Shown: positions 1,741 through 42,216 of the stretch, piece after piece
How the letters are laid out: each line of letters starts with the position of its first letter
How positions within the stretch are numbered: position 1 is the stretch's first letter
Assembly: GCA_028293545.1 (NCBI GenBank)
Contig: JAQGOP010000043.1
Coordinates: 189,651-253,650 of the forward strand
DNA from: Verrucomicrobiota bacterium
GTDB taxonomy: Bacteria; Verrucomicrobiota; Verrucomicrobiia; Opitutales; Opitutaceae
Length of the DNA: 64,000 nucleotides
Direction of reading: 5' to 3'
The notes under the pieces: model-generated
Databases searched by the model: none
The model's input: the letters and a program-made list of their open reading frames with translations, nothing else
What the model was told of the DNA's origin: nothing
Position numbers and translations under genes: made by a program

Positions 1741-2289
1741 TCAGCGCGTCGCGGTCGCTTCCTTGCGCTGGAGCGCGGCCACGTGCGGCTCGAGATGGCT
1801 GATGAAATCCTTCATCGTCGCGTCCAACCCGAAAAACCATTTCGCCATCGCGCGGAAAATTGGCGGGTTGATGAAACCATCCTCCGTCAACGTGAGCTTC
1901 GTTTGCCCGGCGCCTGCGTCGGCGAGCTCGTACGTCCAGCTCCCGCCGAACGGCAGGTCGTTCTTCGCAATGACCCGCACCAGCTTCTCGTTCAGGCGCG
2001 ATTCGGCGGTGACGAACGGGATTTCCTGCCCGTGACGATCGACGTTCCACGTGAGCTCGGTGCCGTCGGAAAGTTTTTCAATGCGGATGGATTTCACCGC
2101 CGGCCACCATTGCGGCATCGTGGAGTAATCCGTCAGGGCTGCCCAAACCGTGGGCCGGCTGGCTGGGAGCGTGACGGTGATTTCGGCGCGGTGTTCGCGG
2201 GGCATCCGTAAACCGACGACATAGAAGAAAAGCGCGGCGGACAGCACCAGCGCGACCAATCCGACCAGGATCGAAAGGGCGATTTTCAT
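1741..2289 (-). CDS. Membrane-anchored SRPBCC-family protein
   Basis: A 182-residue protein. I start it at the ATG at 2289 because this places a hydrophobic segment at residues 4-24 (IALSILVGLVALVLSAALFF); an upstream in-frame start adds only an Arg/Pro-rich leader. The remainder resembles the SRPBCC/polyketide cyclase fold: an N-terminal strand (EITVTLPASRPTVWAALTDY), the typical W-P-A-V-K-S motif after a helix, and a C-terminal amphipathic helix (AMAKWFFGLDATMKDFISHL). Proteins of this fold bind hydrophobic ligands in a cavity. The N-terminal anchor would place the domain outside the cytoplasm. Substrate and pathway are unknown. It lies 61 bp upstream of the repeat-protein start on the same strand and diverges from the TonB-C lipoprotein gene across a 95-bp gap. 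Confidence 0.75.
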   Translation of the reverse strand: MKIALSILVGLVALVLSAALFFYVVGLRMPREHRAEITVTLPASRPTVWAALTDYSTMPQWWPAVKSIRIEKLSDGTELTWNVDRHGQEIPFVTAESRLNEKLVRVIAKNDLPFGGSWTYELADAGAGQTKLTLTEDGFINPPIFRAMAKWFFGLDATMKDFISHLEPHVAALQRKEATATR

Positions 2290-2384
2290 GGGGTGGGGGC
2301 TGCGACGGACGCTGGTGGCCGCGCGCGGACCACGCAAGAACGCGATGACCTGTGCGCTTTGAATTTCAGCGGGTGCTGAAAGGA

Positions 2385-3050
2385 ATGGTTTCCCGCGCCA
2401 AACTCCGCCTCCAATCTCCGGCCTGCGTTCAGTGGGTTGTCCTCGCGCTCGCGCTGCTGGCGGGAGGAGCAGGGTGCCGGCACGTCACGCCCCTTGAAAC
2501 CGGCAGCGGAGGATTTGCCTTTGTGACGCCGCCGGAGCCGCCCGAGTCGAAGGCGAACGCCGTGGCGGACTCCGGCCGGACCACGGAATTCGTCCTCGCC
2601 GCGGAGCCGATCCTGCCGCTGGCCGCGCCGGTCTACCCGGCGGCGGCGCTCGCGATGCGCCCGGGACGGGTGGTGGTGGGCGTGCGGGTGAGGGTCGACA
2701 CGGAAGGCCGCGCGACGGTGGCCGGCCCGAGCCTGGCGGTATTCTCGAGCTACAATGCGCGCGGCCTGGGGTTTCGCGAGGCGGTGGATGACGCCGTTGG
2801 GCAATGGAAATTTGTCCCGGCGCGCATGCAGCGAACGGAAGGTGCGAAGGGCGCGGATGGCGGCGACCTCCTGATGATCAAGGCCGCGGGAACAACGGAA
2901 TGGGTCTTCGATGTGGCCTTCACGTTTACCGCTGCCGGCGACGTGCTCTCGGACGTGCCGGGAATGAGCGCGGCGCCCCCCGCGCAGCGGCTGCGGAATT
3001 TTTTTGTGCGGTTATTTCACCGGCGGGTGCTATCCCGTGAAACGCCATGA
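2385..3050 (+). CDS. Lipoprotein with TonB C-terminal-like domain
   Basis: A 221-residue protein starting at ATG 2385, chosen because it gives a signal sequence with a good lipobox (LLAGGAGC, Cys near residue 31). An in-frame GTG 33 bp upstream is also possible. After a Pro-rich linker, residues 80-200 resemble a TonB-C/energy-transducer fold: a Y-P-A-A-A segment, then a strand with V-V-V-G-V-R-V-R-V-D-T-E-G, a helix and W-K-F-V-P-A. The protein has no membrane helix to contact ExbB, so a classical TonB role is unlikely. Its TGA overlaps the ATG of the following sigma/TonB fusion gene (ATGA, 3047-3050), which implies translational coupling. I infer that both TonB-C modules sit in the periplasm and may act together or sense the same ligand. 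Confidence 0.7.
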   Translation: MVSRAKLRLQSPACVQWVVLALALLAGGAGCRHVTPLETGSGGFAFVTPPEPPESKANAVADSGRTTEFVLAAEPILPLAAPVYPAAALAMRPGRVVVGVRVRVDTEGRATVAGPSLAVFSSYNARGLGFREAVDDAVGQWKFVPARMQRTEGAKGADGGDLLMIKAAGTTEWVFDVAFTFTAAGDVLSDVPGMSAAPPAQRLRNFFVRLFHRRVLSRETP

Positions 3051-4393
3051 GTGAAGATTCCGAACTTCTCCGCCGCTATGCGCACGAGCGCTCGGAAGCG
3101 GCCTTCGCGGAACTCGTGCGCCGCCACGTGAACCTCGTTTATTCGGCGGCGCTGCGGCAGGCGAACGGCGACGCGCACCTCGCACAGGACGCCACGCAGA
3201 TCGTCTTCACCGACCTCGCGCGCAAGGCGGGTTCGCTCGCGGGTCGCGCGGTGCTCGCCGGGTGGCTGTTCACGAGCACCCGCTTCGCGGTGTCCAAGCT
3301 GGTGCGCGGCGAACGGCGTCGACAGGCCCGGGAACAGGAGGCTCAGCTCATGAACGAAACCCACGACGATCCGGCGGCGAAATTGGACTGGGCCCAGGTG
3401 CGCTCGGTCCTGGACGAAGCCCTGGCGGGACTGGCCGAAGCGGACCGCGAGGCGGTGTTGATGCGATTTTTTGAAGGCCGTGATTTCGCCGGGGTGGGCG
3501 CACGGCTCAAGCTTTCCGAAAACGCGGCGCGCATGCGCGTGGACCGCGCGCTCGACAAGCTCCATGCGCAACTCTCGCGCCGGGGAGTGACGTCGTCGAC
3601 GGCGGCGCTGGCCGCCGTGCTCGCGAACCAGGCCGTGGTCGCCGCGCCAGCCGGACTCGCTGCGAGCGTGACGGGCGCCGCCCTGGCAGGCGGGTCGACC
3701 GCGGGCGCGGCCACCGCGATCGCCGCTTTTATGACCATGAATAAAATGACAATGGGAATGGCCGGGACGCTCGTGCTCGCCGGTTCCACGGGTTACATGT
3801 TGCAGGCCCGGACGGCGACGAAGCTCCGCGCGGAATTGGAGTCGGTGCGGACCGCAACCGCGCAGGTCGAGACGCTCAGGTCGGAAAACCTCGAACTCGC
3901 GAAGACCGCCGCCGAGGTTGCGGCGATGCGGACGGACGACGCGACGTTGGCGCAGCTGAACGATGAGGCGGAGGCATTGAAAGTCCGGATGGAGCGCGCG
4001 GCGAGGCTGACCGCGGCCGGCGCCTCGGCGAACGCGAACCGGATGGTTTATGAGCCGCGCGGACTTGATCGCATGCCCACCGCGAAGACGCGGGTTGGGC
4101 CGCAGTGGCCGGCCGCGCTCCGGCAGTCGGTGACGGAAGGAGAGGTCGTCGTCGACTTCGTGGTCGATGCCAGCGGCGTCGTGCGCAACGCGTACGCGGC
4201 GCGGTCGACGATGCGCGACCTCGAATCCGCGGCCGTGGAAGCCGTGGCCCAATGGACTTTTGACCCGGGCCAGAAAGGCGGGCGGCTCGTCAACACGCAC
4301 ATGCAGGTCGCCCTCGTGCTCCGGCCGGCGCCGAACCAATCGGTCGTCGGCACGCCGACGCCTTACGTGCCCGAGAAAAAGCCTCTCAATTAA
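3047..4393 (+). CDS. ECF sigma factor fused to membrane segment, coiled coil and TonB-C domain
   Basis: A 448-residue multidomain protein. Residues 6-102 are sigma region 2 (AFAELVRRHVNLVYSAALRQ, then QDATQIVFTDLARK and GWLFTSTRF). Residues 112-182 are sigma region 4, with a helix-turn-helix (FAGVGARLKLSENAARMRVD). An Ala/Gly-rich hydrophobic stretch at about 185-255 contains at least one membrane segment (MGMAGTLVLAGSTGYML). Residues 258-330 form a coiled coil with L-R-S-E-N-L-E-L heptads. Residues 350-435 are TonB-C-like (GEVVVDFVVDASGVV, then AVAQWTFDPG). ECF factors with C-terminal membrane extensions are known in Planctomycetes and Verrucomicrobia. A TonB-C output fused to the sigma factor in one chain is unusual and suggests a sigma factor tethered to the inner membrane with a periplasmic sensor. 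It is translationally coupled to the upstream lipoprotein and followed after 6 bp by a coiled-coil protein. Confidence 0.85.
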   Translation: MSEDSELLRRYAHERSEAAFAELVRRHVNLVYSAALRQANGDAHLAQDATQIVFTDLARKAGSLAGRAVLAGWLFTSTRFAVSKLVRGERRRQAREQEAQLMNETHDDPAAKLDWAQVRSVLDEALAGLAEADREAVLMRFFEGRDFAGVGARLKLSENAARMRVDRALDKLHAQLSRRGVTSSTAALAAVLANQAVVAAPAGLAASVTGAALAGGSTAGAATAIAAFMTMNKMTMGMAGTLVLAGSTGYMLQARTATKLRAELESVRTATAQVETLRSENLELAKTAAEVAAMRTDDATLAQLNDEAEALKVRMERAARLTAAGASANANRMVYEPRGLDRMPTAKTRVGPQWPAALRQSVTEGEVVVDFVVDASGVVRNAYAARSTMRDLESAAVEAVAQWTFDPGQKGGRLVNTHMQVALVLRPAPNQSVVGTPTPYVPEKKPLN

Positions 4394-4399
4394 TCCGCC

Positions 4400-4696
4400 A
4401 TGCGCATCCGTTGGCAATCGGTCCTGATAGTTCTGCTCGTGACGGTGATGGCCGTGACGCTCGGCTTGCAGCGCCAGGCGAATCGGGAGTTGCAGGGCGA
4501 AATCGAGCTGCACCGCGGCCAGGAAAACGAGCTCGCGCGATTGCGCGCGGAGTGGACGCGGTTGACGCAAGGCCAGCTTCAGGTGGACGAGTTGAAAAAT
4601 CTCAGGACCGATCACGTCGCCGTGATGCGCCTGCGTGGAGAAGTCGACGCGATGCGCGCCCGCGTGCAGGAAGCGGAAAAGTCCGCCGCGAAATAG
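4400..4696 (+). CDS. Small inner-membrane coiled-coil protein
   Basis: A 98-residue protein with one N-terminal membrane helix (residues 7-23, SVLIVLLVTVMAVTLGL). A charged coiled coil fills the rest (ELARLRAEWTRL, LKNLRTDHVAVMRLRGEVD). The spacing of L-R and E residues resembles the coiled coil inside the preceding sigma/TonB fusion, so the two proteins could associate; that is inference. The gap to the sigma gene is 6 bp, so the three genes from 2385 form one transcription unit. No family is recognised. Its TAG stop lies 2 bp before a REP element, which may mark or shape the transcript end. Confidence 0.6.
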   Translation: MRIRWQSVLIVLLVTVMAVTLGLQRQANRELQGEIELHRGQENELARLRAEWTRLTQGQLQVDELKNLRTDHVAVMRLRGEVDAMRARVQEAEKSAAK

Positions 4697-4725: not shown

Positions 4726-4734
4726 ATCCCGAAA

Positions 4735-4988
4735 CCGGATTTAGGCACCACGAAATACACGAAACACACGAAAAGAATACCAAACCAAGGCCCCAGAATT
4801 TTTAGCCGCAAAAAAGCGCAAATTTTTCCGGGGCTGCGAAGGAGATTTGGGAGCGCTTATAAGCGCGCGGAAATTTTGATTCGAAGCCCCGGAAACTTGC
4901 GCTTTTTTGCGGCCAAAAAAATTCTGGTGGTTTGGGGCCAAGGTATTTTTTTCGTGTGTTTCGTGTATTTCGTGGTGCCTAAATCCGG
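4735..4988. repeat. 254-bp imperfect palindrome next to a REP
   Basis: The two arms mirror each other over almost their whole length. CCGGATTTAGGCACCACGAA at 4735-4754 matches the reverse complement of the stretch ending at 4988. The tracts CACGAAACACACGAAAA, CCAGAATTTTT, GCCGCAAAAAAGCGCAA and CCGGGGCT also reappear inverted. The centre lies near 4860 (GCGCTTATAAGCGC). No open reading frame is convincing. It looks like a non-coding MITE-like or REPIN-like mobile palindrome, or a very long hairpin at the end of the upstream operon. The rest of the gap up to the sulfotransferase (4989-5202) shows nothing I can identify. Confidence 0.75.
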
Positions 4989-5202
4989 ATGCGCCTGGCG
5001 CGAATGGCCCTATGTCGCTGGGGTCCGCGGCTACTAAGTTTAGGGATAAATTCCCTTCGCCGGGAATCGGCCTTGCGGCGGTACGCGCGGTATTCACCGC
5101 CATCCGCTCTAAAAACGGGGCAGACGACAGAATCCCCTCCGCGCTTCCACGCGTCTCATCGCGGTCCAGATATTCCGCACCCTGCGGACCTCATGACGCT
5201 TG

Positions 5203-5919
5203 ATGATCAGCCACACGCACCGTTGCATTTTTGTCCATATTCCAAAAACCGCTGGCAACAGCGTGAATCGAATCTTCGGTGTCGGGTGGGAGGATCACAA
5301 GGACCTGGCGCGGTACGCGGAGGAGCTGCCGCCCGAGAAATTTGCGCGATACTTCAAGTTCGCGATCGTGCGCAATCCCTGGGACCGCCTTTTTTCGGAC
5401 TATAATTACCAGCGCAAGAAGAGCCGCGCGGGCAAGCTGTTCGTGCGAACCGACTCGGGCCGATTGAGGACGTTTTCCGAGTGGGTGCGAGTGGTGCTGG
5501 CCGACCCCTACCGCTACCAACCCGCGGCTTGGGCGGGCAATGTCAGCCCGCGCCTTCATCGGTGGAGCCCGCAGGTGGATTGGATCAGTATCGACGGGCA
5601 GAACCGGATGGATTTCGTCCTGCGCATCGAAAACCTGCAGGCGGACTTTGGCGCGGTGTGCCGCCAACTGGGCATGCCCGTGACGCGGTTGCCGCGCCGC
5701 AACCGCCGGCTGCATGGCCATTATTCCTGGTATTATGATGAGGAGACCCGCGATCTGGTAGGTTCGCACTATGCCCGCGACATCGCGGCCTTTGGCTATC
5801 GGTTCGAACGCAGCGCCCTGTGTGAAGGCTGGTGTCGAATGCGTTCGACCGCCTCGACGGTGATGAGCAGCCTGCGCACGTCCACCGCGCTCACTGCGGT
5901 GCGTTTCAAACAGCCATGA
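5203..5919 (+). CDS. Sulfotransferase family 2-like protein
   Basis: A 238-residue cytoplasmic or membrane-associated enzyme. The start is ATG 5203; a TTG directly upstream would add one residue. The PAPS 5'-phosphosulfate loop is near residues 9-19 (CIFVHIPKTAGNSV). The 3'-phosphate binding motif is near 53-66 (FAIVRNPWDRLFSDY). Both fit the carbohydrate/heparan-type sulfotransferase family (Sulfotransfer_2). Such enzymes move sulfate from PAPS to hydroxyl groups of glycans or lipids; the acceptor here is unknown. The next gene is an APS kinase overlapping by ATGA (5916-5919), which would make the PAPS donor, so the pair is a compact sulfation cassette. No ATP sulfurylase gene is in the window. 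Confidence 0.85.
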   Translation: MISHTHRCIFVHIPKTAGNSVNRIFGVGWEDHKDLARYAEELPPEKFARYFKFAIVRNPWDRLFSDYNYQRKKSRAGKLFVRTDSGRLRTFSEWVRVVLADPYRYQPAAWAGNVSPRLHRWSPQVDWISIDGQNRMDFVLRIENLQADFGAVCRQLGMPVTRLPRRNRRLHGHYSWYYDEETRDLVGSHYARDIAAFGYRFERSALCEGWCRMRSTASTVMSSLRTSTALTAVRFKQP

Positions 5920-6518
5920 GTCTCCCGTTTTCCGCATCGCCCCGCACCGGTCACGTCTTCTGGCTCTTCGGATTGTCGGGCGCGGGCAAGAGCACGCTGG
6001 CCGCGGCGCTCGACCGCACGCTGCGCGAGGAAGCGCGACGCGAAACCTTGCTGCTGGACGGGGACCGTCTGCGCGCCGGGTTGTCTCGCGGGCTCGGATT
6101 TGGGGATGAGGACCGTTCGGAAAATCTGCGGCGCGGGGCCGAGGTCGCCCGGCTTGGCGTGGAAAGCGGACTGCTGGTGATCGCGGCCTTCATCACCCCA
6201 CTGGAAGCACAGCGACGATTGGTGGAGTCGATTGTGGAGCGGAATTCCATTTCCATGATCTTCATCGATGCGCCCCTCGAACTGTGCCGGCGCCGGGACG
6301 TGAAGGGCCTTTATCGCGGCGCCGCCAACGGGGCCGTGCCGAGTATGACAGGCATCACCTCGGTCTTTGAAGACGCGCAGGGTGCGGACCTCCGGCTGAT
6401 GACGGGCGTGGAAACCCTCCCGGGTTCCGCCGCAAGGTTGGCGGCGTTTGCGCGGCAGCGACTGGAGCAGGCGAAGGGCGCGCAGATGACGGCGGGTGTG
6501 CGCGACGCGATGGCCTGA
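5916..6518 (+). CDS. cysC: Adenylylsulfate (APS) kinase
   Basis: A 200-residue protein when started at ATG 5916, which overlaps the stop of the sulfotransferase; longer in-frame starts lie inside that gene. It phosphorylates adenosine 5'-phosphosulfate at the 3' position using ATP to give PAPS. The P-loop is GLSGAGKST (residues 19-27). It is followed by LLLDGDRLRAGLSRGLGF, an N-L-R-R segment, and the family motif PLELCRRRDVKGLYRGA. The lid region GITSVFEDAQGADLRL fits APS kinases (G-I-x-x-x-[FY]-E-x-P/Q). The usual F-I-S-P-Y is F-I-T-P-L here, a mild variation. Pairing with a sulfotransferase points to use of PAPS for sulfation rather than sulfate reduction. Confidence 0.88.
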   Translation: MSLPFSASPRTGHVFWLFGLSGAGKSTLAAALDRTLREEARRETLLLDGDRLRAGLSRGLGFGDEDRSENLRRGAEVARLGVESGLLVIAAFITPLEAQRRLVESIVERNSISMIFIDAPLELCRRRDVKGLYRGAANGAVPSMTGITSVFEDAQGADLRLMTGVETLPGSAARLAAFARQRLEQAKGAQMTAGVRDAMA

Positions 6519-6557: not shown

Positions 6558-6584
6558 TCGGAGCAGGCGGGCCGCCTGCGCTAC
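6558..6584 (-). repeat. REP-like element overlapping a stop codon
   Basis: Same palindrome as at 4699, opposite orientation, core GCAGGCGGGCCGCCTGC. The conserved GTAG at its edge contains the TAG stop codon (6581-6583) of the adenylate cyclase gene. The element lies between convergent cysC and cyclase genes and could act as a hairpin that protects or ends transcripts. Confidence 0.8.
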
Positions 6585-8302
6585 TTTTCCACGGCGTGGA
6601 TTTCCACGGCGCCGGCTCGGCCCTTCACGGTGACGGAACCGAGCGGGCGGGTGTTCACCGGTGTGCCGCGGACCGCGGCCAGCGTGGCGGCGCTGGTGAT
6701 GATGTTGGTGTGGTATTCCGGCGTGCGCGTCAGCGACTGGAGGCGCGCAGCCACGTTCACGCCGTCCCCGATCACGGAATAATTCAGCCGGCGATGCGAA
6801 CCGATGTTGCCCGCGACGACGCGCGCGGTGTTCACCCCGACGCCGATCGCGAGGGGAGGACGGCCTTCGGCGGCGAACTCGGCATTCAGGTCCGCCAGCG
6901 CGCGCTCCATCGCGAGCGCGGCGGCGAGCGCGCGATCCGCCGCATCGTTTTGGGCAACGGGAGCGCCGAACAGCGCCATGATCGCGTCGCCGATGAACTT
7001 GTCGATCACGCCCCCATGGCGCTCGATTTCGCCGCTCATGCGGTCGAGGTAGCGGTTGAGCAACGCGAGCAAGGCGGGCGGCGGAAGCTTTTCGCTGAGC
7101 GTCGTGAAGCCGCGCAGGTCCGCGAAGAGGATCGTGACCTCGCGCTCTTCGCCGCCGAGGGTCGCGCCGTCGCGCATCAGCTGCGCGGCCACTTCCGGCG
7201 AAACATTCTTGTCGAGCAAGTCGCGCACCTGGTCGCGCTCGGCGAGGCCGATGCTCATGGCGTTGAACGACTCCGCGAGGTCCCCGAGCTCGTCCGCGCG
7301 GTCGAGGTCCAGGCGCGCAGTGTAGTCGCCGCTGGCGATCACGCGCGTGTGCGACGCGAGTTGCTGCACGGGTTCGCTGATGCTGCGCGCGAGCCCGAGG
7401 GCGATGAGCGTCGCGACGAGCAAGGCCGCGAGCGAAATGTAAAGCAGGCGCCGCTCGAGGGCGTGGGCCGCGGCGAGTTCGGCGGTGAGCGGGCGCTCGA
7501 GGACCACGGTCACCGGATCCTCGCCCAGCAGGTCCTGGAGCTTGAAGAGGGAAACATACCGGTCGTCGCCGAGCTGCACGATTTTCGTGTGCTCGACCGC
7601 GTTGGGCTGGGCGGCGACGAGGCTCGAGATCACCTTGAAATTCTCGTCGGACAGCGTCGTGGCGGACGCCTTCGCGCCCTGGACCGAAACGAAGCTCACT
7701 TCGATCCCCGTGGTATCCTTGATCTTCTGCGCGAACGCCCGGTCGATCGGAAAGGCGAGGCCAAACCAGCCGGAGATATTCGGATACGGCGCATAGAGCG
7801 GCACGACGACCAGCACGTGGAGCTTGCCGTTGAGGTAGGAAAACCCGCTGTCCTCGAGCTGGTCGGCCTTCGTGGCGCGCTCGATGAGATAGCGAAAGGG
7901 CCCGAGGTTCTCGTTCGCCATGTCGGAGTCGCTGTTCGCAAGCAGCGCGCCTTCGGTGTCGAAGAGGGCAATGACGGGGGCGCCCACGCGGCCGGTGAAA
8001 CTCTTGAGCGCGGAGCTCAGGGTCTTCGTGTCGGGCTTATCCTCGCCCAGCACGGTGCGGATTGCGTAGTCGCTCGTCATCACGCCGGCGCTTTTTGCGA
8101 GGGACGTGATCTGCTGGCGCACCGCGTCGTCGTAGATGCGTTCGCCGATCTTCAGGTTGGCTTCGCTGTGCGCGAGCGCGTTGGAAAGATTGGCGTGGGA
8201 AACGAGCACGTAGGTGACACCCAGCGTGACAAAGAGCAGGCTCAGCAGCATCGCGAGCAGCCGCGTGCTGAAGCGGCGAAATCGGAAAATGCGGACGGCC
8301 AC
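6581..8302 (-). CDS. Membrane-bound class III adenylate cyclase with extracytoplasmic sensor and HAMP
   Basis: A 573-residue protein starting with GTG at 8302. A membrane helix at 13-35 is followed by an extracytoplasmic domain of about 250 residues that looks cache-like (VGAPVIALFDTEGALLANS, PNISGWFGLAFPIDRAF). A second helix lies near 285-307, then a HAMP linker (ELGDLAESFNAMSIGL). The C-terminal catalytic domain spans about 385-560: VTILFADLRGFTTLSEKL carries the metal-binding Asp, DKFIGDAIMALFG carries the second Asp and the Lys typical of ATP selectivity, and YSVIGDGVNVAARLQSL completes the site. It should make cAMP in response to an extracytoplasmic signal. It is the last gene of an esterase-cupredoxin-cyclase set; the cupredoxin stops 12 bp upstream. 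Confidence 0.9.
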   Translation of the reverse strand: MAVRIFRFRRFSTRLLAMLLSLLFVTLGVTYVLVSHANLSNALAHSEANLKIGERIYDDAVRQQITSLAKSAGVMTSDYAIRTVLGEDKPDTKTLSSALKSFTGRVGAPVIALFDTEGALLANSDSDMANENLGPFRYLIERATKADQLEDSGFSYLNGKLHVLVVVPLYAPYPNISGWFGLAFPIDRAFAQKIKDTTGIEVSFVSVQGAKASATTLSDENFKVISSLVAAQPNAVEHTKIVQLGDDRYVSLFKLQDLLGEDPVTVVLERPLTAELAAAHALERRLLYISLAALLVATLIALGLARSISEPVQQLASHTRVIASGDYTARLDLDRADELGDLAESFNAMSIGLAERDQVRDLLDKNVSPEVAAQLMRDGATLGGEEREVTILFADLRGFTTLSEKLPPPALLALLNRYLDRMSGEIERHGGVIDKFIGDAIMALFGAPVAQNDAADRALAAALAMERALADLNAEFAAEGRPPLAIGVGVNTARVVAGNIGSHRRLNYSVIGDGVNVAARLQSLTRTPEYHTNIITSAATLAAVRGTPVNTRPLGSVTVKGRAGAVEIHAVEK

Positions 8303-41664: not shown

Positions 41665-42216
41665 ATGACGCTTTTCAGGAAAGCCCCCACCACCGACCGC
41701 ATGGAGGACGTTCCTGACGATGATTCTTGGAGAAACTGGTTTGACCGACACGGACCCAAACTACTGCTGTGCGCCCGGCAGTGGACGAGGTCGCTCGCGG
41801 ACGCCGAAGACGTGGTCCAGGAAGCGTTCATCCGCTTCTGGCGTCACCAGCGAAAACTCGGCGGCGAGCCGCAGGCTCTCCTCATCACTTCGCTTCGTCG
41901 TGCCGCCATCGACCTCGCGCGCAGCAACGCCCGGCGCGGAGCCCGCGAAGAACTCGCTGACGGTGGCTTGGAAAACACCGGGCCTGTTTTTGAAACTCCG
42001 TTTGAAGGCGACGATCGCCGCCAGGCCATCGAGGACGCATTGCGCCACCTTCCTGCTGAACAGCGCGAAGTCCTCACGCTCAAGATTTGGGGCGAACTCA
42101 CTTTTGAACAAATTGCGGCGCAGCTTGGGATTTCCCCGAACACTGCGGCCTCGCGCTATCGCTACGCACTCGGTGCGCTGCGCCACGTCCTGACCGCGGC
42201 CGATTGCCATGGATAA
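41665..42216 (+). CDS. ECF RNA polymerase sigma factor
   Basis: A 183-residue sigma factor if begun at ATG 41665; a longer start at 41527 would translate intergenic DNA and the candidate promoter. Region 2 covers about 20-85 (WFDRHGPKLLLCARQWTRSL, DAEDVVQEAFIRFWRHQ). Region 4 covers about 125-180 (LRHLPAEQREVLTLKIWGEL, then TFEQIAAQLGISPNTAASRY with the HTH). No C-terminal extension, unlike the factor at 3047. Its end overlaps the next gene by 8 bp; that gene encodes a one-helix membrane protein with a cytoplasmic N-terminus, a likely anti-sigma partner. A PDZ protein gene completes the unit. Confidence 0.9.
   Translation: MTLFRKAPTTDRMEDVPDDDSWRNWFDRHGPKLLLCARQWTRSLADAEDVVQEAFIRFWRHQRKLGGEPQALLITSLRRAAIDLARSNARRGAREELADGGLENTGPVFETPFEGDDRRQAIEDALRHLPAEQREVLTLKIWGELTFEQIAAQLGISPNTAASRYRYALGALRHVLTAADCHG

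Follow-up and report, generated by a model that had tools for sequence, protein, structure and literature searches.

Whether a single polypeptide can follow the state of the cell envelope and choose a promoter by itself, with transcription factor, membrane anchor and outer domain in one chain, is the question raised by a locus of a Verrucomicrobiota bacterium (Opitutaceae; assembly GCA_028293545.1), which lies in a 64,000-nucleotide stretch of contig JAQGOP010000043.1 (positions 189,651 to 253,650), referred to here as the window and used for all coordinates unless a locus is named. The locus comprises three consecutive genes on the forward strand, here called UP (2385-3050), SIG (3047-4393) and DN (4400-4696). 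SIG is an extracytoplasmic function (ECF) sigma factor carrying a TonB_C tail, and it is not a lone oddity; it belongs to a large, mostly Opitutaceae family in which nearly all fusion genes are preceded by a promoter of two conserved blocks, with specific bases following specific residues of the protein encoded behind it.

The 448-residue SIG chain, predicted to be membrane-tethered, is confirmed to contain an ECF sigma factor and a genuine TonB_C domain, joined by a linker, a weak predicted transmembrane (TM) segment and a coiled stalk. In Pfam, all three named domains score above their cut-offs: Sigma70_r2 at residues 23-92 (nucleotides 3113-3322; 30.4 bits, cut-off 24), Sigma70_r4 at residues 125-172 within a region 4 delimited here as 122-172 (3410-3562; 35.1 bits, cut-off 24.1), and TonB_C at residues 352-421 (4100-4309; 42.2 bits, cut-off 24.6). 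NCBIfam agrees, with sigma70-ECF at 63.8 bits and tonB_Cterm at 42.6 bits, and sequence and fold searches of the PDB match the first half of SIG to solved ECF sigma factors and its last part to TonB. Between these domains lie a family-specific hydrophobic linker (residues 179-232; 3581-3742), in which a profile over 123 fusions shows the conserved motif RRGVTST..ALA..A...AAPAGLAA.VTGAAL, the predicted TM segment (residues 234-252; 3746-3802), which is weak in this copy, and a helical stalk (residues 257-330; 3815-4036). The AlphaFold model contains confident sigma helices (residues 4-178), a single long helix over residues 238-330 and, for residues 345-425, a TonB_C fold, with low confidence at residues 200-241 of the linker region; because the model, built on 38 sequences, reached a predicted template modelling score of only 0.34, neither the arrangement of the domains nor any autoinhibition can be read from it. 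No FecR or other anti-sigma domain was matched in SIG by Pfam (FecR at E up to 1), nor was a zinc finger, in the place of which stands the different conserved linker. The original prediction had placed sigma regions 2 and 4 and a C-terminal TonB_C domain in one chain that would replace a separate anti-sigma/FecR relay; the one-chain architecture is supported, and the lack of a FecR or anti-sigma match in SIG agrees with the proposed replacement.

To place SIG among its relatives, fusions were collected from 57 related genomes and from the best 80 loci of named genomes, nearly all of them Verrucomicrobiota and two labelled only "bacterium", yielding 157 fusion open reading frames (ORFs) and, after removal of duplicates, 124 unique fusions. 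The occurrence of 26 TonB_C-bearing fusions among these 124 rules out an assembly or frame artefact behind SIG, and its own genome encodes three further fusions that share the front part but end in other tails. A Pfam scan of 120 tails (three were dropped for a short tail or an X in the sequence, plus that of locus L135), of which 25 of the 39 families found are considered here, assigned TonB_C to 26, carboxypeptidase-regulatory or Ig-like domains to six, SLBB, ExbD and NfeD to two each, and SecDF_P1, NHL, Sel1 and Poly_export to one each; FecR is not among these 25 families. The sample is biased towards TonB_C because the query itself carried that domain. With the linker profile, the family was detected in 78 of 200 Opitutaceae genomes, representing 36 of 49 genera, and in 19 of 288 genomes of a sample across the phylum, representing three families, while a tblastn search of plasmids with the sigma half found nothing at E up to 1e-5. 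Several tails that received no assignment, such as those of the fusions at L015 and L066, show LTxxQ-like helical repeats by eye, which we take to be reminiscent of periplasmic proteins of the CpxP/Spy type. On two contigs of one genome (G033; C102 and C55, loci L050-L052 and L066), several fusion genes stand in tandem with differing tails and promoter classes.

The DNA before the start codons of the fusion genes shares an element, found by reading, that can be modelled as the block TTTTGTgCGGTTTt, a gap of 6-7 nt and the block GGCGGnTGcTAta. The first block precedes 121 of the 124 fusions and both blocks precede 113, the gap being 6 or 7 nt in 104 of these two-block promoters and the distance from the end of the element to the start codon 8-15 nt in 91. 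Scored with a position weight matrix (PWM), the predicted autoregulatory promoter of SIG (3002-3034, + strand; -35 block TTTTGTGCGGTTAT at 3002-3015, -10 block GGCGGGTGCTATC at 3022-3034) is the best site in the window at 34.9. The second best, at 20.7 against 15.8 for the next site, is a predicted promoter of UP of the same specificity class (2348-2380, + strand; blocks at 2348-2361 and 2368-2380), which lies 37 nt before the ATG at 2385 and differs from the core of the SIG promoter by two mismatches. Across 1.12 Mb of collected loci, which are enriched for fusions, 171 sites score above 17, compared with four in a reversed control; 142 of the 171 precede a fusion by an automatic rule, and reading of 25 distinct others placed 19 before fusion genes, one before an UP gene and five before neither. 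Some sites stand apart from this pattern. A site very like the promoter of an ExbD-tailed fusion lies in SIG's own genome (L155; G000:C61:46928) with no fusion gene after it and is possibly a relic; an orphan site precedes the promoter of a fusion gene by about 250 nt (L066:7174; G033:C55:22176); and the same promoter-like 29-mer occurs three times in one genome (G031; C38, C46 and C68), probably as part of a repeated element.

That the sigma half reads this element is argued by residue-base covariation over 112 protein/promoter pairs, obtained from 124 sites. Region 4 of a sigma factor reads the -35 element and region 2 the -10 element, and this assignment falls out of the data: the strongest couplings join residues 159 and 163, in the recognition helix of region 4, to one -35 base (position 7), and residue 84 of region 2, followed by residues 56, 77, 60 and 80, to -10 bases, residue 84 pairing with position 20. 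The orientation of the promoter is therefore fixed. The top three couplings reach z = 30, 28 and 25, compared with maxima of 5.7 in the linker, 5.2 in the TM segment and coil and 6.2 among the remaining residues. In its main classes the resulting rule is nearly deterministic. With Asn159/Met163 the -35 base is G in 53 of 54 cases, with Asp159/Met163 it is T in 29 of 29, and with Asp or Glu at 159 and Lys at 163 it is C in 18 of 18, the minor class Asn159/Lys163 showing C three times and G once; at the -10 position, Lys or Arg at residue 84 goes with G (43/44), Asn with T (12/17) and any other residue with C (51/51). SIG itself carries Asn159, Met163 and Lys84. On the best of the trees, built quickly and without the covarying columns, the -35 and -10 bases changed at least 25 and at least 27 times, respectively.

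The rule was also applied to held-out loci. From 60 such loci, removal of those sharing over 95% identity with a training protein or with another held-out protein took out 22, and eight more were set aside for want of a clear promoter call, although several of these (such as L243, L248 and L252) have a site that the eye can recognise; for the remaining 30, whose nearest training proteins are 50-82% identical, the prediction was correct for 27 of 29 -35 bases and for 28 of 30 -10 bases (one locus, L234, has no rule for position 7, and another, L246, was scored as correct although its site looks shifted), compared with 11/30 and 15/30 when the commonest base is always chosen. Some of the results weigh against so strict a reading. 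The control regions reach a mean best z of about 3, and because control residues also couple to some extent, shared ancestry must add a background to the couplings; furthermore, well-supported branches provide only four to five independent pairs per test, which run nearly all in the expected direction with median p of 0.06-0.25, no such test being significant alone. Covariation and held-out prediction together nevertheless constitute strong evidence that the fused sigma factor works and that every member recognises a promoter of its own, so that the tethered SIG, which has regions 2 and 4 and whose reading of -35 and -10 is supported in these two ways, is very probably functional and autoregulatory. 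Had the promoter been read by another sigma factor, covariation with the DNA-reading residues of this family would not be expected, and that alternative is rejected.

The same evidence bears on the idea that SIG is in essence a TonB-type energy transducer, working with ExbB/ExbD, in which the sigma domain is incidental. Its TonB_C domain is real, with solved TonB relatives of the same fold, and two relatives have ExbD-like tails. The covariation, however, indicates a working sigma factor at the N terminus, the tails are interchangeable within the family, and typical transducer features are replaced: the TM segment of SIG has no histidine of the ExbB-coupling Ser/His type that marks the N-terminal TM segment of TonB, and the stalk stands in place of the proline-rich arm. 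Such a role is accordingly regarded as highly improbable.

The position of the tail relative to the membrane is a separate matter. A TM segment between sigma domain and coil had been part of the original prediction; on a home-made residue score the family median is favourable (-0.85), while the SIG copy itself is marginal. Against a periplasmic tail it counts that no other of the 121 scored family members has so weak a segment as SIG (+1.43), that on the Kyte-Doolittle scale it is less hydrophobic than the SIG linker (1.11 and 1.71), and that charge does not decide the topology of the fusions (1.5 Lys/Arg before and 2.0 after the segment; net +1.4 before and 0.0 after). Because of this weakness, the TM claim for SIG rests on the family. 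The linker and TM segment could instead form a hairpin, or neither might span the membrane, in which case TonB_C would be a cytoplasmic allosteric domain. This arrangement appears improbable: the TM segment surpasses the linker as a membrane segment in 99% of the 121 fusions by residue score, the tails include SLBB, SecDF_P1, ExbD and TonB_C, which are extracytoplasmic elsewhere, and the homologous companion protein encoded downstream begins with a stronger TM segment (net charge +1.6 before, +0.8 after). The tails of the family named by Pfam are mostly of kinds known outside the cytoplasm, and the TonB_C tail of SIG would lie in the periplasm.

The companion of SIG, DN (4400-4696, + strand), is a 98-residue protein consisting of an N-terminal TM segment and a stalk, with no sigma domain and no Pfam family above cut-off. 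The resemblance of its coil to the one inside SIG, noticed at the outset, is borne out by comparison of a profile of 23 companions with a profile of 23 sigma stalks, which scores 92.6 (98.8%), while 40 column shuffles average 20.5 with a maximum of 28 and a reversed coil gives 32.6. Chance likeness between coiled coils is ruled out by these shuffled and reversed controls, and because the profile match far exceeds them the companion is taken as a sigma-less twin of the sigma stalk. The pair is also conserved: among the 25 of 26 TonB_C fusions with enough downstream DNA, a one-TM coil protein is encoded next downstream in 23 (the exceptions being L031 and L064), 16 of these companions being recognised by sequence match to DN (phmmer, E up to 1e-3) and seven by position, TM segment and reading. 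Around the other fusions, a similar neighbour was found in 21 of 95 with DNA available, the rule applied being a rough one under which some doubtful cases pass. At the end of long companions lies a confidently folding domain (predicted local distance difference test score 92.3) resembling NTF2-like proteins (best Foldseek E 1e-4), and a profile of this domain matches the tails of 11 of the 124 sigma fusions (E<1e-5). Such a Rosetta-stone pattern, with one domain occurring both in companions and in fusion tails, supports the view that companion and fusion proteins work together.

Upstream, UP (2385-3050, + strand) is a predicted lipoprotein with the lipobox ...LAGGAGC and a degenerate TonB_C domain, and its 3' end overlaps the start of SIG by 4 nt (ATGA). 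Its description as a TonB_C-type lipoprotein fares differently by copy and by family: in this copy TonB_C reaches only 12.8 bits, under the Pfam cut-off, but a profile of five UP family members matches the TonB_C domain of SIG with 97.5% probability and the relative at L073 scores 25.5 bits, above the cut-off, for which reasons the assignment is accepted as probable. The five relatives were picked by eye, since a lipoprotein profile, once iterated, spread to TonB_C proteins in general. UP adjoins the fusion in only five of the 26 TonB_C loci, some of which have only 1.5 kb of flanking DNA, and by eye it lies upstream on the same strand in three; this counts against the reading favoured below. 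The order UP-SIG-DN is thereby ruled out as a general one, and of the original interpretation the one-piece architecture, the TonB_C-type lipoprotein and the matched coil remain, together with the pairing of SIG and companion, while the generality of the three-gene order does not.

Candidate targets were sought with promoter patterns. In SIG's own genome, a SIG-specific pattern allowing up to three mismatches returns the SIG promoter (0), the UP promoter (2) and one further site (3), which falls within a frame recognised by eye as dehydratase-like; the gap-7 pattern has no match there. In genome G033 a SIG-type site precedes the UP gene that itself precedes the SIG of that genome, and in genome G014 a site, first met with a general pattern, precedes a gene for an exported 134-residue TonB_C protein (67.2 bits) 1.26 Mb from the fusion. 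Among 38 sites in 200 genomes, 33 were identified (29 by reading, four as known fusion or UP promoters): 17 are fusion promoters, one of them of a fragment, three precede non-fusion targets, one has no DNA after it and 12 lack a fitting gene, seven of the latter, with an ORF shortly downstream, being enclosed by a longer open frame that has starts further upstream. Several features speak against reading more into these hits. Match numbers show no real excess over the reversed control (3 versus 4 in the own genome, 45 versus 56 in a further search and 38 versus 36 in the 200 genomes), so that support for the target claims comes from position and gene identity; the pattern used for the 200 genomes was shaped on the same three non-fusion targets that it returned; and the frame of the G014 target stays open through the site, with a further start 76 nt upstream, so that the signal peptide is what places its start at 1563. 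Taken together, these sites are suggestive of TonB_C sigma factors driving free TonB_C proteins.

Much of this would also fit self-propagating cassettes, in which promoter, sigma factor and TM segment have been duplicated onto many tails and serve mainly their own expression, with little outside regulon. One genome (G033) has 25 linker matches, promoter sites in the collected loci stand almost solely before fusion genes, the only target in the own genome (G000) is SIG's own operon, and the best tree, with its many weak branches, requires at least 12 changes of TonB_C. Conserved companions (23/25), repeated co-change of bases and residues, and the matching sites ahead of UP genes and of a far-off TonB_C gene are not what such cassettes lead one to expect, and we consider this account rather unlikely.

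The reading favoured here, which we hold to be probable though far from assured, is that SIG acts as a one-component membrane ECF sigma factor through which a change in the envelope turns on the UP-SIG-DN operon, DN tuning the response and UP being its output. Computation bears out the domains, the homology of the stalks, the conserved gene pair and the promoter with its recognition rule and held-out prediction; as we infer them, topology, pairing, signal, feedback and switching of the membrane form would run as follows. The cytoplasmic half would read its private promoter, while TM segment and stalk hold SIG in the inner membrane with TonB_C in the periplasm; in the sensing step, the periplasmic part would change state, and the sigma half would then activate UP-SIG-DN from two promoters, before UP and before SIG. 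Sensor, sigma-less stalk twin and free TonB_C lipoprotein would all increase as a result. The most likely role of DN is that of a partner bound to SIG by way of the homologous stalk, which either fixes the off state or adjusts the response. The output would be UP, or in a relative the exported TonB_C protein of an unlinked gene, and it may act back as feedback if it competes with SIG for one periplasmic partner.

How the tethered form would be switched can be approached through the membrane segments. Membrane-tethered one-component activators such as ToxR and CadC act in place, and SIG might in the same way recruit RNA polymerase to the membrane uncut, which is possible, though we tend to doubt it. 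The best target TM-score among near-full-length sigma chains belongs to an RNA polymerase-bound form (6jbq, 0.65), but anti-sigma-bound structures rank equally high by E-value; the absence of any anti-sigma domain match by Pfam and the stalk twin, which suggests dimer-based control, would also suit such action in place. On the other side, the sigma TM segment is weaker than that of the companion in 20 of 23 pairs and richer in residues of the Gly/Ser/Thr type (mean 6.0 versus 3.7), as suits a cleavable segment better, and the studied precedent, IutY of Pseudomonas putida (ECF243), is a one-piece sigma/anti-sigma protein cut by Prc and RseP (PMC5411451). Because of the weaker sigma TM segment, proteolytic release as in IutY would be the first choice within the one-component reading.

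One-piece membrane sigma factors are a kind already known, since both IutY and the groups ECF48, ECF52 and ECF53 are such proteins (PMC8999054). IutY likewise joins a cytosolic ECF sigma factor, a membrane segment and a periplasmic domain; its periplasmic part, however, is a cell-surface-signalling anti-sigma, whereas that of SIG is TonB_C on a coiled stalk with no FecR match, accompanied by a sigma-less stalk twin. The ECF48/52/53 proteins, such as SCO4117, share a C-terminal extension with a TM helix and an extracytoplasmic part, but they are described from Actinobacteria (PMC8999054) and have, ahead of the TM helix, a zinc-finger anti-sigma-like part, of which Pfam found nothing in SIG. Cell-surface signalling resembles the present case in having an envelope-controlled ECF sigma factor and a TonB-related domain; there, TonB-dependent receptor, FecR and FecI are three separate proteins, while SIG carries TonB_C itself. 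The contrast drawn with that system from the start is upheld, and classical FecR signalling is ruled out at the locus, no TonB-dependent receptor or FecR having been matched by Pfam in UP, SIG, DN or the seven larger neighbouring ORFs. RsgI of Clostridium thermocellum is also an envelope sensor that controls a sigma factor, with a sensor domain resembling the regulated products, but it is an anti-sigma apart from its sigma factor.

What is new is the conserved two-block promoter before almost every fusion gene, with its residue-to-base code. In titles and abstracts, with key ECF-classification papers outside the scope of the search, no description of TonB_C sigma fusions, this linker, the stalk twin or the promoter code was found; rewiring of ECF specificity has reportedly been studied already, in a 2020 paper cited in PMC8103513. 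More tentatively, and a little short of an even chance in our estimation, the family may represent mutually insulated membrane sigma factors, each with a code for its own promoter only, a swappable tail that at least in the TonB_C branch matches an exported target, and a partner copied from the stalk. If this is true, envelope sensing, signal transfer and promoter choice would be united in one chain that needs no kinase, receptor or anti-sigma factor. The locus in any case provides a path in one piece between envelope and promoter, with no anti-sigma domain found, and the spread of the family (78 of the 200 genomes) is wide enough for a major regulatory style of the Opitutaceae. The code makes the targets of members predictable from sequence, the family is a source of numerous sigma/promoter pairs that differ by nature and bear various outer domains, and the SIG-DN pair combined with a reporter would provide a direct way into the switching of a tethered sigma factor.

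The seven larger neighbouring ORFs are of mixed character. By Pfam, a polyketide-cyclase/SRPBCC-type protein is encoded at 1741-2337 (- strand), a sulfotransferase at 5200-5919 (+), an adenylylsulfate kinase at 5832-6518 (+) and a dCache-HAMP adenylate/guanylate cyclase at 6581-8302 (-), the others being a CarboxypepD_reg protein (below cut-off), a PATR protein and a PEP-CTERM protein. The large autotransporter-type (PATR) and PEP-CTERM proteins lie upstream of the left part of the window (L018 3735-7721 and 537-3620, both - strand). Just after DN, at 4730-4993, there is a nested inverted repeat with 52-nt arms that are 94% complementary and inner 27-nt arms, resembling a small mobile or repeat element. 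Elsewhere in the window, at about 41797-42192 (G000:C61:231447), an ordinary ECF-like sigma match is present.

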